DNA of 64,000 nucleotides from Nitrospirales bacterium (GTDB taxonomy: Bacteria; Nitrospirota; Nitrospiria; Nitrospirales; UBA8639), in NCBI GenBank assembly GCA_021603905.1, contig BQIU01000004.1, positions 1 through 64,000 on the forward strand. The letters are read 5' to 3'. The notes beneath the pieces were generated by a model that had not been told where the DNA came from, did no database searches, and saw only the letters and a list, made by a program, of their open reading frames with translations. Shown here in pieces: positions 20,635 to 25,522 of the stretch (positions within the stretch are counted from its first letter, which is position 1; each line of letters opens with the position of its first letter). A program made the translations under genes and the position numbers.

Positions 20635-22224
20635 CTACTTGCATAACACTGTGGATTGTGAAGAGTGATTCTGGTGACATTTCACCAATTCAGATTTCCC
20701 TGATGCTTTAGGAACGCGAAGTTTACTTTGATGCATTTTGTGCCTGGCATGATACGGTAAAATGCCGCTCAACACATCCGGGAGGACATCACAAGGAACA
20801 TCTTCCAGTAACTTCGTGGATGGTTTTGGGTCCGGCCCTGAACGCCCCCCCACATAAATATCGACGGCTTCGATAATCTCACCTTTCACTTTCACTTTTT
20901 TGCCAATCAACCCAACGTCTGCAACCAAATGATTGCCGCAACTGGCAGGACACCCAGACCAATGCATCGTAATAGGCTTGAGATCGGTACCGAGCTTGGC
21001 TTCAATTTTTTTCGCCGTTTCGATCGCTCGACTCTTGGTTTCAATCACTGCCAAGTTACAGTAGTCATTTCCAACACAGCTCACTAAGCCTTTTTGGATT
21101 GGGGTAGGATTATAGACATACCGTTGCAACAATGGCTCCTCGGTTAGGTCCCCAATTTTTCTATCAGCGACATTCGGGATGACAATGGCTTGATTATGAG
21201 CCAGTCGTAATTCCCCTGTTCCGTACGTCTCGGATAGTTGAGCGATCTTCAGAAGATCGCCTGCGTTGATACGACCCACTGGAATTTTCAACCCGATATA
21301 ATTTAACCCTAACGACTTTTGTCGAAAGACACCCATATGATCATTCACGGACTTCTTTCTTGCATCGTTTCCTGCATGAGCATAGGGACGCCCTAACCGA
21401 TTTTCCACTTCGATTCGAAATCGTTCCTCTCCCCATCGATCAACCAAAAATGCCAACCGTGCGGTATTGCGCGACTCTCGAAAACCATGATCTCTATAAA
21501 TTTCAAGTATGGCACACGTCACCCTCAGAACCTCTGATGGTTTCACAAACATATCCAACGATGAAGCAATGCGATACCCCCCAGACCCTAACTTTCCACC
21601 CACGAACACATTGAAGCCTGTGGTCATGCCCCCTTTGTCCTGAACCGTTGCTGGCACAAAAGCCAAATCTTGAGTTTCCAGATGCAGACAGTTTTCAAGA
21701 CATCCCGTAATCGCCATATTAAATTTTCTCGGGAGATTGGAATAGGCCCGGTTTCCAACAATTTCCTCCGTCAAGCTTCGAACCAGTGGCGCCGTGTCAA
21801 TGAGTTCTGAAGACGTTAATCCCGTTGCTGGACAGGTCATAATATTACGCACGTTATCCATGCCGGTCTGAAGGCTCCATAATCCCACCTCATCCAACCG
21901 CTTGAATACCTCTGGCACATCTTCAATAGTCAAATGACGAAGCTGAATTTGTTGCCGCGTCGTCACATCGATCACCCCATTGCCAAAGCTGCTCGAGACC
22001 TCTGCAAGAGTTCGGAGCTGGGCTGAAGTTGCACTCCCTCCAGGTATTCGAACGCGTACCATGAAGTGTCCCGGCGTTGGACTACGAAGAAACAACCCCA
22101 TCCACTTTAATCGTTGAATATCTGCATCCTCAATGGACTCCCATCCTGTCTTGGCAAACCGGTCAATGTCCTCACGAACATCCAACCCATCCTTCTCCAG
22201 CTTAAGAACCTCTACCTTATTCAT
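20635..22224 (-). CDS. nirA: Ferredoxin-type nitrite reductase (siroheme, 4Fe-4S)
   Basis: Six-electron reduction of nitrite to ammonium in the cytoplasm. 529 residues with two ferrodoxin-like halves: MVRVRIPGGSATSAQLRTLAE (about 55-75) and IPVGRINAGDLLKIA (about 315). The siroheme/4Fe-4S cysteines are the C-x5-C in SCVGNDYC and C-x3-C in SGCPASCGNH near residues 395-440. Sulfite reductase is the main alternative; the nitrite-channel gene 34 bases upstream favours nitrite. Probably used for assimilation. A long low-similarity tail (after HARHKM) ends the protein. Confidence 0.92.
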   Translation of the reverse strand: MNKVEVLKLEKDGLDVREDIDRFAKTGWESIEDADIQRLKWMGLFLRSPTPGHFMVRVRIPGGSATSAQLRTLAEVSSSFGNGVIDVTTRQQIQLRHLTIEDVPEVFKRLDEVGLWSLQTGMDNVRNIMTCPATGLTSSELIDTAPLVRSLTEEIVGNRAYSNLPRKFNMAITGCLENCLHLETQDLAFVPATVQDKGGMTTGFNVFVGGKLGSGGYRIASSLDMFVKPSEVLRVTCAILEIYRDHGFRESRNTARLAFLVDRWGEERFRIEVENRLGRPYAHAGNDARKKSVNDHMGVFRQKSLGLNYIGLKIPVGRINAGDLLKIAQLSETYGTGELRLAHNQAIVIPNVADRKIGDLTEEPLLQRYVYNPTPIQKGLVSCVGNDYCNLAVIETKSRAIETAKKIEAKLGTDLKPITMHWSGCPASCGNHLVADVGLIGKKVKVKGEIIEAVDIYVGGRSGPDPKPSTKLLEDVPCDVLPDVLSGILPYHARHKMHQSKLRVPKASGKSELVKCHQNHSSQSTVLCK

Positions 22225-22258: not shown

Positions 22259-23104
22259 TCACCCACGAACCCCGTCAGACTCAAATGTTGAGGGCACAGG
22301 GGGACAATTCATTATTGGTACCGGCGTCACCGGCAAGGGAACTCGACTCGTAAACCAATAGGCGCCACCAACACAGACTGCCCCGCCGACGAGATTCCCC
22401 AACCCGACCCAGACTTGATTCCACAGAAACCCATACAGGGTGATGTCGTGTCCATGGGGGAGAAGTAATGCCATGCTGAAGATTGATTGATTGGCGATAC
22501 TATGTTCAAACCCACTTCCCACAAAAGCCAAAAGACACCAAAAAATCAACATTACCTTCGCGGCATCATTCGTGGTTCGTGCTGACATCCAAACTGCTAA
22601 ACAAACCAGCCAATTGCACAAGATTCCTCGAATGAACAATTCCCAACCGGATAGCGACATTTTCATAGAGGCCACATTCATCAGCAGATCAACGTGCGGA
22701 GTCTTCGACAAGACGCCTGATTGCACAATCAGCCAGGCAATGCCAAACGACCCAATCATATTGCCGAGAAAGGACCAGAAAAAAATTTGCCCGACCTGGT
22801 TCCAGGTAATCACCTTCGACAAACCACCAATAGTGCAGACCATGTTATTGCCAGTGAACAATTCCGAACCGGCAAAAATCACGAGCGTCAGCGCGATCCC
22901 AAACGCCGCTCCCATGACTAACTTGACGGCCCCTGAACCCTCTGCGGCAAACGGGGCTCCAACACTAAAGATTAATGTAATTCCGAATCCCAAATAGACG
23001 CCGGCCAATACTGATAGCATGACATAGCCAAAAGGAGAAGATTGCTGATACGCCACCTTTGTGCTTGCCACTTGAGCCATTCTTTCGATATCCGTTTCGT
23101 ACAT
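22259..23104 (-). CDS. Formate/nitrite transporter family channel
   Basis: 281 residues from MYETDIERMAQVASTK, with an AAAGG site 7 bases upstream; the longer frame to 23164 runs into the terminator of the leader. FNT proteins are pentameric channels for formate or nitrite with six TM helices. FNT marks include GVYLGFGITLIF, AGSELFTGNNM (about residue 80), NWLVCLAVWMS and SGFEHSIANQSIFSMALL near residue 200. With nirA directly downstream (34-base gap), it is best read as a nitrite importer of the NirC kind. Expression is probably from the sigma-54 promoter and leader just upstream. Confidence 0.93.
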   Translation of the reverse strand: MYETDIERMAQVASTKVAYQQSSPFGYVMLSVLAGVYLGFGITLIFSVGAPFAAEGSGAVKLVMGAAFGIALTLVIFAGSELFTGNNMVCTIGGLSKVITWNQVGQIFFWSFLGNMIGSFGIAWLIVQSGVLSKTPHVDLLMNVASMKMSLSGWELFIRGILCNWLVCLAVWMSARTTNDAAKVMLIFWCLLAFVGSGFEHSIANQSIFSMALLLPHGHDITLYGFLWNQVWVGLGNLVGGAVCVGGAYWFTSRVPLPVTPVPIMNCPPVPSTFESDGVRG

Positions 23105-23148
23105 GTGATGCCTTTCATGAATTGTTTGCGTACCGTGGATATTGTGCC

Positions 23149-23260
23149 AAAAAAAAGACGCCACCTGCCTGATTGGGGAGATATTGCCTCCCCCTCATCA
23201 GCAGTGGCGCCTTTGCCAGCTGTTCTTCCACTCACGTTGACCAATGACTAACTATGTCAT
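23149..23260 (-). promoter_or_regulatory. Nitrite-channel leader: hexaloop antiterminator hairpins and terminator
   Basis: Read on the minus strand between the predicted start (about 23265) and the FNT gene. P1: ATGAC/GTCAT stem with loop ATAGTTA (23260-23244). P2: TGGC/GCCA stem with six-base loop AAAGGC (23218-23205). Then a long terminator: GGCGCCAC (23211-23204) pairs with GTGGCGTC (23164-23157), with an inner GGGGAG/CTCCCC helix and T8 (23156-23149). P2 and the terminator share bases 23211-23205, so they exclude each other. Both loops have A at position 1 and G at position 4, the known hallmark of ANTAR-protein targets in nitrate/nitrite operons, although P1 has seven loop bases instead of six. 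No ANTAR gene is in the window. Confidence 0.65.
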
Positions 23261-23275
23261 CTTAATACATGCATA

Positions 23276-23291
23276 AGCGATTATTGTGCCA
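23276..23291 (-). promoter_or_regulatory. Sigma-54 (-24/-12) promoter of the nitrite operon
   Basis: On the minus strand: TGGCAC-N5-TCGCT, matching TGGCAC-N5-TTGCW at every position but one, with the required 10 bases between the GG and GC. It predicts transcription from about 23265, a few bases before hairpin P1 of the leader. An enhancer-type activator gene is next door. Confidence 0.75.
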
Positions 23292-23378
23292 ACTGTCCTC
23301 AATAGAAAAATAATGAACAATCACGCAGTTTTGCTCCCACAAAGTGGGCCGAGCACATCAATATTTTTCAGACAATCC

Positions 23379-23412
23379 GACAATTTTGTCCGTTTCATCC
23401 GACAATTTTGTC
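23379..23412. promoter_or_regulatory. Two identical palindromic activator sites (UAS)
   Basis: GACAATTTTGTC occurs at 23379-23390 and 23401-23412, each a perfect 5-bp inverted repeat (GACAA-TT-TTGTC). The centres are 22 bp apart, two helical turns, so both face the same side. A half-site GACAA lies at 23371. They sit about 115-145 bp upstream of the predicted sigma-54 start, the usual distance for enhancer sites. The adjacent activator is the obvious binder. Confidence 0.7.
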
Positions 23413-23474: not shown

Positions 23475-24695
23475 TTAGGAAGAACGGTCAATCTTATACT
23501 TTTTCATTTTATACGCGACTTGTCTCGGGGTAAGTCCCAGCTTCCGAGCGGCCTTGGCTTTAATCCAGCCAACGTCTTGCAACACCTGCACTAACCGATC
23601 ACGTTCAAGATTTCGAACATCTTTCGGTAAGGTATCGAGAGCGTTCAAGGAAGCCATTTTTTGAGCTGAAAGGGTGACGGCTCGTATATGATGCATATAG
23701 GACTGTAATGGTTTAGGAATTGCTGAGATTGTCACATTTGGTGAATCTGCCAAAACCACAATTCGTTCTATACAATTCTGTAATTCACGAATATTTCCAG
23801 GCCAGTGGTAGCGAGATAACATAGCGACCACGTCAGCATCTAATTTGATGTGACGATGATTGTCACGATTGAACCGCTCAAGAAAATGCTCTGCTAATGG
23901 GGTGATATCTTCTTGACGTTCACGAAGCGGCGGCAAGACCATTGGAACCACATTTAATCGATAGTAGAGATCCTCTCTAAATGTTCCAGAGTACACCATG
24001 GCTTCCAGGTCACGATGTGTGGCCGCAATAATTCGAATATCAGCAGGAAGCAGCTGTGTGCCTCCGACTCGTTCATACTCCCGCTCCTGAAGGACTCGAA
24101 GAAGTTTTACCTGCATACTCAACGGAATATCCCCAACTTCATCGAGAAAGAGTGTTCCTCCTGAAGCCTGTTCCAACTTTCCTCGGCGGGTCTTACTCGC
24201 ACCCGTAAACGCCCCGCGTTCATAGCCAAACATCGTCGACTCAATTAATGAGTCTGGAACCGCAGCGCAATGCAGAGGAATAAAGGGACGGCCTTTTCTG
24301 GGACTTGATTCGTGAATAGCCTTGGCGACCAGCTCTTTCCCCGTTCCACTTTCTCCACGAATCAAGACTGTAGCCTGACTGTGGCCTGCTCGCACAATGG
24401 ATTCATAAACATATTGCATGACCGAACTGTTCCCAATCAGACTCAATGAACCTGCTTCAACATTCGTCATGTGCCGGTTGGAACTGCTCTCTGGTTTAAA
24501 CTCTACCTGCTGCCGCTTCAAGGGAGCGCTATTTTTTGATTTTTGTTTTGGCTTTTTTTCATGACAAGCGAGTATCTCTAAAAGTCCTAATGCTTCATGT
24601 ATGCGAACATCAGGACTAGCCTTTCCTGTCAGAATCGCTTTGAGTTGCCTCACGACCCCGGGAAGATCATCTTTGAGTGATTCTGGAACTTTCAT
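23475..24695 (-). CDS. Sigma-54-dependent transcriptional activator (Fis-type HTH)
   Basis: 406 residues. N-terminal 100 residues match no receiver, GAF or PAS domain that I can see. The AAA+ domain (about 105-330) has Walker A GESGTGKE, the sigma-54 contact loop GAFTGA, Walker [12 protein letters not shown] and the sensor [22 protein letters not shown]. The C-terminal Fis-like HTH is in [20 protein letters not shown]. Being without a receiver, it may be controlled by its own expression, by effector binding or by a partner. It is encoded just upstream of the nitrite channel and nirA on the same strand, with its probable binding sites and a -24/-12 promoter between. Start ATG with AAGG 8 bases upstream. 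Confidence 0.92.
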
Positions 24696-24923: not shown

Positions 24924-24962
24924 AAAAAAAAACGCCCATTCCCAAATTGGAGAATGGACGTT
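24924..24962 (-). terminator. Intrinsic terminator upstream of the activator gene
   Basis: Eleven-pair stem AACGTCCATTC with GAATGGGCGTT (one G-U pair) on the minus strand, followed directly by nine T. Its position, 230 bases before the activator start and about 235 bases after the DUF5615 stop, allows either a conditional terminator or the end of a small RNA. Confidence 0.85.
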
Positions 24963-25026
24963 CGTTGTCCTTCGGCTAAGCTTTGTACGTATGTGAGAAT
25001 CAACGACCTTGTTGCTTCTCCTTAGC
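24924..25026 (-). promoter_or_regulatory. Structured leader or small RNA ahead of the sigma-54 activator gene
   Basis: About 100-base structured RNA on the minus strand. An outer GCTAAG/CTTAGC pair encloses a strong hairpin P1, GAGAAgCAAC-[AAGGTC]-GTTGaTTCTC (25020-24995). Next comes P2, GGAC-[AACGAAC]-GTCC (24970-24956), then a terminator whose 5' arm (24962-24952) overlaps P2. P1 has a six-base loop and P2 a seven-base loop; each has A at position 1 and G at 4, as in ANTAR antiterminator targets, and the layout mirrors the leader of the nitrite channel. The activator gene starts 230 bases further on. It could instead be an independent small RNA. Confidence 0.55.
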
Positions 25027-25029
25027 TAT

Positions 25030-25058
25030 TAGGTATCAGACACCAATACGCATGTCAA
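25030..25058 (-). promoter_or_regulatory. Sigma-70-like promoter for the structured leader
   Basis: Minus strand: a perfect -35 TTGACA (25058-25053), 17-base spacer, and a weak -10 TACCTA (25035-25030) with an extended TGA before it. Predicted start near 25023, at the first base pairs of the structured RNA. Confidence 0.5.
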
Positions 25059-25201: not shown

Positions 25202-25522
25202 TTAGAAAATACTCACTTTGTGAAGCTTTCCAGGGGTTGAGGTTTCGATAGCTTGGAGGATCGATGCGATGGTTGCTTGGATTTTGGGCCAACTTGTGGA
25301 GGAGAGGACGACAATTGCGATGTTCTGTTCAAAAAAAGTTTCACAAATGCCATGATTTTGATCAGTGGTCAGTAACACATCCACGCCCTCTTCCTGAGCT
25401 TTGGTCAGTAACTCACTATTCGTGCAAAGGCCCCATCCATGTTCAAAAACGGTTTCCACTTGATGCGGAAGCAGGAGCTTGCGCAGCGGAACCGGTATGC
25501 CTTGGTCAAAGAGAATTCGCAC
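25202..25522 (-). CDS. DUF5615 family PIN-like protein (probable toxin)
   Basis: 106 residues. MRILFDQGIPVPLRKLL with the first Asp of the PIN-like fold, GWGLCTNSELLTKAQEEGVDVLLTTD with the second acidic group (TTDQNHG), then IAIVVLSST. DUF5615 proteins are PIN-related predicted RNases and nearly always pair with DUF433 antitoxins. The DUF433 gene is immediately upstream (1-base gap), which supports a type II toxin-antitoxin pair. Confidence 0.85.
   Translation of the reverse strand: MRILFDQGIPVPLRKLLLPHQVETVFEHGWGLCTNSELLTKAQEEGVDVLLTTDQNHGICETFFEQNIAIVVLSSTSWPKIQATIASILQAIETSTPGKLHKVSIF

Follow-up and report, generated by a model that had tools for sequence, protein, structure and literature searches.

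The leader in front of the nitrite channel-nirA genes in a Nitrospirales bacterium related to the nitrite-oxidizing Nitrospira is probably an attenuator of the ANTAR kind, and a single GAF-GAF-ANTAR protein would license both this message and that of a neighboring activator gene when nitrogen is short. The analyzed stretch (the window) comprises 64,000 nucleotides, positions 1 to 64,000 of contig BQIU01000004.1 (assembly GCA_021603905.1), and the leader region lies at 23149–23260. The window genome (G000) was 90.8% complete with 7.5% contamination. Judged from sequence, the second hairpin (P2) and the terminator are mutually exclusive, leaders of this design recur before nitrogen genes, each family genome has one ANTAR match, and most RNA-contact residues of the protein are kept. 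We infer that the protein binds and causes read-through, that its signal is nitrogen status, and in which direction the system responds. The elements of the leader and its genes were as follows.

23277–23292, minus strand: sigma-54-like promoter TTGGCACAATAATCGC (TTGGCAC-N5-TCGC), from the sequence and an rpoN domain in G000
23243–23261, minus strand: P1 hairpin GATGAC-ATAGTTA-GTCATT, 6 bp, 7-nt loop with A1 and G4
23205–23218, minus strand: P2 hairpin TGGC-AAAGGC-GCCA, 4 bp, hexaloop with A1 and G4, overlapping the terminator
23149–23213, minus strand: intrinsic terminator (hairpin 23213–23155) with T8 (23156–23149)
22259–23104, minus strand: channel gene of the formate/nitrite transporter family (FNT; Pfam Form_Nir_trans, 5.6e-65)
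20635–22224, minus strand: nirA, ferredoxin-type nitrite reductase (Pfam NIR_SIR, 1.4e-55)

In the proposed mechanism, RNA polymerase from the sigma-54 promoter would, without the protein, halt at the terminator (23213–23149) before reaching FNT-nirA. Upon nitrogen shortage, reported by the GAF domains, the GAF-GAF-ANTAR protein would bind P1 and then keep P2 closed, so that P2 would take bases from the 5' arm of the terminator and allow read-through. The activator gene has a similar leader of its own, and the ANTAR protein would therefore act as a double gate that licenses both messages. Two further units are probably under the control of this protein: nadE-glnD, just downstream of the ANTAR gene, and a porin-amt cluster. 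Binding and terminator prevention are presumed by analogy with EutV and NasR, where the protein is described as binding the hairpins and thereby preventing the terminator (PMC8934654 for EutV).

The FNT start codon is probably ATG 23104, as judged from relatives, and transcription probably starts near 23266. The nirA product matched the NCBIfam ferredoxin-nitrite reductase model at 4.5e-172 and 573 bits, below its cut-off of 594. The terminator and P2 have GCGCCA in common. The fold of 23105–23270 had an energy of -55.5 kcal/mol (z = -4.3), and its minimum-energy structure contained the terminator and not P2, which fits an attenuator that is off by default. The promoter has GG and GC at -24 and -12, and G000 carries an rpoN gene (Sigma54_DBD, 6.2e-59). 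The usual -12 element of sigma-54 promoters is TTGC, from which TCGC in the window is one departure. A sigma-54-type promoter was present in all nine single-leader sequences, the window's included. Two hairpins whose loops carry A1 and G4, and a T8 terminator that overlaps P2, all below a sigma-54 promoter, had been reported in the preliminary description. Each of these was confirmed on the minus strand, the promoter as sigma-54-like, as were the remarks there that P2 fits exactly and that P1 has one loop base too many. An ANTAR-type attenuator behind a sigma-54-like promoter is likewise supported, and initiation and elongation are both likely to be regulated, as the preliminary description proposed.

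Chance levels were estimated with dinucleotide shuffles for P1 and shuffles for P2. An A1/G4 loop of 6 or 7 nt on at least 6 bp appeared in the 47-nt P1 region in 2.3% of 5000 shuffles. For a P2-like hairpin (A1/G4 hexaloop, stem of 4 bp or more) anywhere in the 125-nt leader, the figure was 21% of 2000 shuffles. The single sequence is therefore suggestive only, and the case rests on conservation.

Among the 48 family genomes, an FNT protein was found in 25 and the P2 plus terminator pattern in 18, at one place each; the reversed-pattern control gave none. Seventeen of these 18 places precede FNT (in G019 the gene is interrupted by assembly Ns), and the remaining one (G025) follows an activator gene, with no FNT after it on that contig. 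The pattern had no match in genomes of genus g2, though several carry FNT. At two loci of that genus (L014 and L025), two consecutive FNT genes precede nirA; the P2-terminator element is missing there, and activator-like pieces lie either upstream of the FNT genes or between them. At L099 (G084), no gene was recognized by eye downstream of P2 and the terminator.

GGCAA, the loop G4, CGCCA and also A1 were invariant in 19 of 19 aligned leaders. P2 showed no covariation in this alignment because it hardly varies. In the terminator, 94.7% of cells were paired, and nine cells were changed on both sides versus 2.5 in shuffles; three pairs had both-side changes, a number reached by 78 of 500 shuffles. 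The preliminary description had made its reading depend on conservation of the hairpins and their loops in relatives. On this point P2 with its A1 and G4, together with the terminator, is conserved, but in most leaders no P1 was found by the rule applied.

P1 was clear only in two closely related species. It is identical in the closest species (L003), where two bases differ immediately on either side of it. No P1 was found by the same rule in the transcribed leaders of L004 and L005 (the other genus members with FNT), L013 and L078. These leaders favor an alternative in which ANTAR control of FNT works through P2 alone, P1 having decayed or never been present. EutV is also described as contacting one hexaloop at a time, a single hexaloop being the minimal binding motif (PMC8934654). 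We regard P2-only control as unlikely, because P1 has stayed unchanged in L003 despite the changes beside it, and because of its spacing and the similar hairpins upstream of P2 in other leaders. The 4-bp core of P1 ends 27 nt upstream of the P2 core, a spacing shared with the nadE leader of G000, and P1 lies about 5 nt from the probable transcription start; this equal spacing and this closeness favor a real P1 in the window. In the 60 nt upstream of P2 in 22 GGC-type leaders, A1/G4 hairpins with 7-nt loops occurred in five versus 0.37 expected, where the window and L003 count as two and that of L097 adjoins a canonical P1. A1/G4 hexaloop P1 hairpins occurred in two of the 22 versus 0.42 expected, and most showed neither hairpin by this rule. 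The P1-like 7-nt loops in some leaders of other genera read AAAGGAT and AAGGTAT, and an A1/G4 hexaloop hairpin lies farther upstream in L012, L032 and L085.

Compared with the dual-hexaloop rule, the FNT leader has two stem-loops of at least 3 bp each (P1 6 bp, P2 4 bp) and an A1/G4 hexaloop in P2 over the terminator. The P1 loop has seven bases instead of six, with A1 and G4 retained, and the linker of 24 nt exceeds the 5–12 nt of the rule. With its seven-base P1 loop, the FNT leader is taken as a variant that would act like a dual-hexaloop leader. The linker also measures 24 nt in the nadE leader and 17–31 nt in many relatives, and 5 and 4 nt in L097 and L098. Linkers of eut leaders are given as 5–12 nt, and an extra 20 nt abolished antitermination there (PMC3369931, PMC8934654). 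True A1/G4 hexaloop P1 hairpins exist in the nadE and activator leaders of G000, the latter with a P2 loop of seven bases. An alignment that joined P1 and P2 of leaders with short and long linkers was misaligned and was excluded from the counts.

A genome-wide search for ANTAR proteins, which the preliminary description had proposed, found one match in G000, so the leader does not lack a possible partner. The match lies on another contig (G000:C22), in keeping with the earlier statement that no ANTAR gene occurs in the window. The protein has 418 amino acids with the domains GAF, GAF and ANTAR, and neither a NIT nor a receiver domain was found in it. Exactly one ANTAR match was present in each of the 48 family genomes, and among 18 further chosen genomes of the order, 15 had one and three had none. 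The GAF-GAF-ANTAR arrangement was found in all 11 proteins scanned from three families (f1, f2, f3), that of G000 and ten others. These ten came from 15 ANTAR loci, one of which (L130) had no reading frame by the motif; 10 of the remaining 14 were scanned. The first GAF region resembles, among others in PDB, the GAF domains of PEP-protein phosphotransferases and of the NifA-like nlh1.

In EutV numbering, the G000 protein keeps the contacts R142, K143, K149, E160, M172, N173 and R175. It has F at 164, where the aromatic character is kept, and R for K147, and it differs at two contacts (R168 to Q, R177 to S). The EutV residues were taken from PMC8934654, and the chain numbers of the alignment run 2 higher. 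In EutV, R142, K149 and E160 are described as holding G4, and Y164 as stacking on it (PMC8934654). F164, Q168 and S177 were constant in 37 of 45 ANTAR loci, those fitting the residue motif; the eight off-motif loci were excluded, and R142, K149 and M172 are fixed by the motif itself.

The preliminary description had likened the leader to the design used by NasR/NasT-type ANTAR proteins on nitrate and nitrite operons. A switch of that type answering to nitrate or nitrite would suit targets that take up and reduce nitrite, and NasR is described as acting so on the nasF leader of Klebsiella oxytoca, and NasS-NasT on nitrate-assimilation genes. However, NasR is a NIT-ANTAR fusion, to which the only ANTAR protein of G000 does not correspond, and the further leaders before nadE-glnD and porin-amt point to nitrogen status. 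For known Nitrospira, nitrite is the energy substrate. If this holds here, nitrite would serve poorly as a signal for nitrogen assimilation. An answer to nitrate or nitrite itself is therefore improbable, and neither the NasR/NasT type nor such a signal is supported. Taken together, the candidate targets nadE-glnD, amt, an nrtA-like gene and nirA point to nitrogen shortage, not nitrite. Expression of nirA in Nitrospira tepida in the absence of ammonium is reported (PMC12342949), which agrees with a shortage signal and is no test of the leader.

The FNT leader is nevertheless like nasF in its two A1/G4-loop hairpins, with P2 in the terminator, before nitrite/nitrate assimilation genes. Unlike the nasF/NasR system, it is paired with a GAF-GAF sensor, a wider predicted regulon, a 7-nt P1 loop and a 24-nt linker. 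nasF is under sigma-54/Ntr control. NasT is a receiver-ANTAR protein, and the sole ANTAR protein of G000 has no receiver domain. The NasS-NasT leaders described in Paracoccus, Bradyrhizobium and Azotobacter resemble the present case as ANTAR antitermination of nitrate/nitrite genes, and differ from it in that the 11 proteins here are GAF-GAF-ANTAR. The eut/EutV system of Enterococcus faecalis shares the dual-loop design, and most of its RNA-contact residues are kept here; it differs in its short linkers, in EutV being a response regulator and in its ethanolamine genes.

The gene upstream of the FNT leader encodes a sigma-54 activator and is preceded by a second leader, which was absent from the preliminary description. 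It was matched by the covariance model R1, which was built from 26 leaders.

23475–24695, minus strand: sigma-54 activator gene, AAA+ domain and Fis-type HTH (Pfam Sigma54_activat 3.5e-71, HTH_8 6.5e-13)
23379–23412, minus strand: near-palindrome GACAAAATTGTC in two identical copies (23412–23401 and 23390–23379), possible activator sites
24924–25058, minus strand: second leader, before the activator gene (R1 match 24926–24972, E 0.13)
25058–25028, minus strand: sigma-70-like promoter of the activator leader, TTGACA...TGATACCTAAT
25020–24995, minus strand: P1 of the activator leader, GAGAAgCAAC-AAGGTC-GTTGaTTCTC, hexaloop with A1 and G4
24970–24956, minus strand: P2 of the activator leader, GGAC-AACGAAC-GTCC, 7-nt loop
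24960–24933, minus strand: terminator of the activator leader, T9 to 24924

No receiver domain was found in the activator protein. Its best NCBIfam model was NifA, with 431 bits, below the cut-off of 528.85. From its position and type, the activator probably acts on the FNT promoter, and the GACAAAATTGTC copies may be its sites. Comparable palindrome pairs were seen by eye upstream of the promoter in L004, L005, L013 and L078.

The second leader lies about 230 nt before the activator gene, and its existence means that the activator is probably itself gated. R1 also matched the corresponding place in G001, G002 and G003 (E 0.32, 0.036 and 0.13). The same kind of leader precedes the activator gene in L010, L011, L012 and L013. 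In G001 (L195), the P2 and terminator of the activator leader were present and P1 had no match by the rule. A small ORF with a DUF5615 match is located upstream of the activator leader (25202–25522, minus strand).

The wider set of leaders was assessed with a GAC-AARGNC-GTC stem plus terminator, which occurred at 51 places in 43 of 196 genomes of the order; the reversed control gave one place. Forty-two of the 51 GAC-type places were analyzed as sequence, 41 of them distinct. In 18 of these 41, the 60 nt upstream contained an A1/G4 hexaloop hairpin with a stem of 4 bp or more, versus 1.33 expected from shuffles, and 23 had no P1 by the rule. The 7-nt-loop form of P1 occurred in none of the 41 versus 1.19 expected. 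In the sister family f3, leaders precede FNT and genes resembling nrtA, ammonium transporter and nadE genes, some in tandem, with identities assigned by eye. At L096, glnA is followed by the first-pattern element (P2 plus terminator) and then by an NMT1-like (NrtA-type) binding protein gene. The same element precedes an ammonium transporter gene at L097 and has an activator homologue downstream at L098, and both of these loci show a canonical A1/G4 hexaloop P1.

One leader of G000 sits directly downstream of the ANTAR gene and upstream of the gene for glutamine-dependent NAD synthetase (nadE) and glnD. The locus (L175:3694-10088 on G000:C22) contains the ANTAR gene, repeated DNA recognized by eye, the leader, nadE and glnD in order, and the contig also carries an rpoN domain match about 9 kb away. 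With E values up to 5 allowed, R1 had 17 matches in five genomes of the genus. Fourteen of them had E below 0.4: five were leaders of nadE, five of porin-amt and four of the activator gene. The other three, at E above 3, look like noise. The FNT leader itself was not listed by R1. Because R1 scored 150 of the roughly 1300–1475 first-look candidates in each genome, there may be further leaders.

The P2 loop of the amt leaders begins with G, and the porin was identified as BBP2 in the one genome checked. A leader detector applied to 30 amt loci with 1.5-kb flanks, from 20 family genomes of which 18 had a match, gave nothing convincing. This reflects the flank limit, since R1 later placed the leader of G000 about 1.6 kb upstream, before the porin gene. 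A loosened detector, checked on known loci, also gave chance-like matches inside genes.

Two tandem leaders precede FNT in 10 genomes (genera g5, g7 and g10), and no activator homologue was found in these genomes within 1.5–3 kb upstream of FNT (0.3 kb in L019). The upstream leader of the pair, leader A, aligns with the activator leader of the window in promoter, P1, P2 and terminator. In genera g1, g3, g4 and g9, the activator gene adjoins FNT (in G025, the FNT leader), with a promoter of sigma-54 type. The simplest reading would be that the activator gene was lost and two leaders were fused.

P1 of leader A was the best-supported hairpin, with 40 of 40 cells paired among eight distinct sequences and three of five pairs changed on both sides, all at one homologous place. 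Its loop had G4 in 10 of 10, and position 1 was G, not A, in 4 of 10. The P2 loop of leader A had seven bases in 10 of 10 and G4 in 6 of 10. The rows of this P1 alignment (A3) were located by eye. Another alignment (A6; 30 hairpins, 29 distinct) was assembled from selected hairpins, which biases its covariation, and was not relied on; the cleaner evidence is A3 together with the shuffle test of the upstream hairpins.

These tandem copies also bear on the possibility that the element is a plain terminator or insulator against read-through from the activator gene, with an incidental P2-like hairpin. The terminator hairpin begins about 260 nt past the end of the activator gene, and a P2-like hairpin can be fortuitous, as the 21% of shuffles indicates. 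Yet the terminator lies downstream of the sigma-54-like promoter and within the probable FNT transcript, the invariant GGCAA and loop G4 fall outside the core terminator arms, and the design recurs before other nitrogen genes, including the tandem copies with no adjoining activator gene. A mere insulator is accordingly very improbable.

Within the window, only two tRNAs reached the gathering score of an Rfam family, and all matches at the two leaders stayed below threshold. Neither narK RNA (RF03032; 17.5 bits versus a gathering score of 43.2) nor Pseudomonas P11 (RF00625; 15.5 versus 70) includes the FNT leader as a member; their sub-threshold alignments extend over both the P2-like hairpin and the sigma-54-like promoter. 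Control of the terminator by a metabolite-binding riboswitch, or by some unrelated RNA-binding protein, is highly unlikely: the linker is long enough to hide another structure, but no Rfam family reached its gathering score, the aligned leaders show no larger conserved domain beyond the hairpins and a variable linker, and the loop rule matches ANTAR. No relative was found among viral contigs.

Attenuation overridden by the GAF-GAF-ANTAR protein would be part of what looks like a nitrogen-supply switch common to the order Nitrospirales. A more extended reading, to which we give an even chance, is that this protein is a Nitrospirales-wide nitrogen-shortage regulator acting largely at the RNA level. 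It would license nadE-glnD, amt, nrtA-like genes and FNT-nirA together with the activator, as a feed-forward double gate. Where the activator and the sigma-54 promoter were lost, both leaders would have been kept and fused in tandem, attenuation replacing a DNA-binding activator, and the linkers of about 17–31 nt and 7-nt loops would be a new ANTAR geometry.

We know of no described nitrogen-assimilation regulator in Nitrospirales. Literature searches on Nitrospira with ANTAR or antitermination gave nothing relevant by title or abstract opening, and those on the narK motif or narK RNA found nothing. NasR does not occur in a 2025 comparative genome paper on Nitrospirales, whose passages with the word regulator concern other topics. 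GAF-ANTAR was the title subject of none of the matches listed, and a 2012 paper states that no PAS- or GAF-ANTAR protein had yet been characterized (PMC3369931). The same source describes a predicted nitrogen ANTAR regulon in Desulfotomaculum acetoxidans, with at least 13 hits in six units. The resemblance lies in one genome carrying numerous predicted leaders ahead of nitrogen genes, and the difference in that the passage on it mentions no activator cascade or contrast between tandem leaders and activator (PMC3369931).

The present analysis offers a candidate nitrogen regulator of Nitrospirales with predicted RNA targets, and a prediction open to in vitro testing that needs no host genetics. 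It also supplies predicted targets for a GAF-ANTAR protein. The genomes with the activator beside FNT and those with tandem leaders form a natural experiment, in which activator control appears to be swapped for RNA control. At L012:720-925, tandem leaders precede the activator gene, followed by a sigma-54-like promoter and FNT-nirA; with two leaders already before the activator, this locus bears on which leaders were fused.
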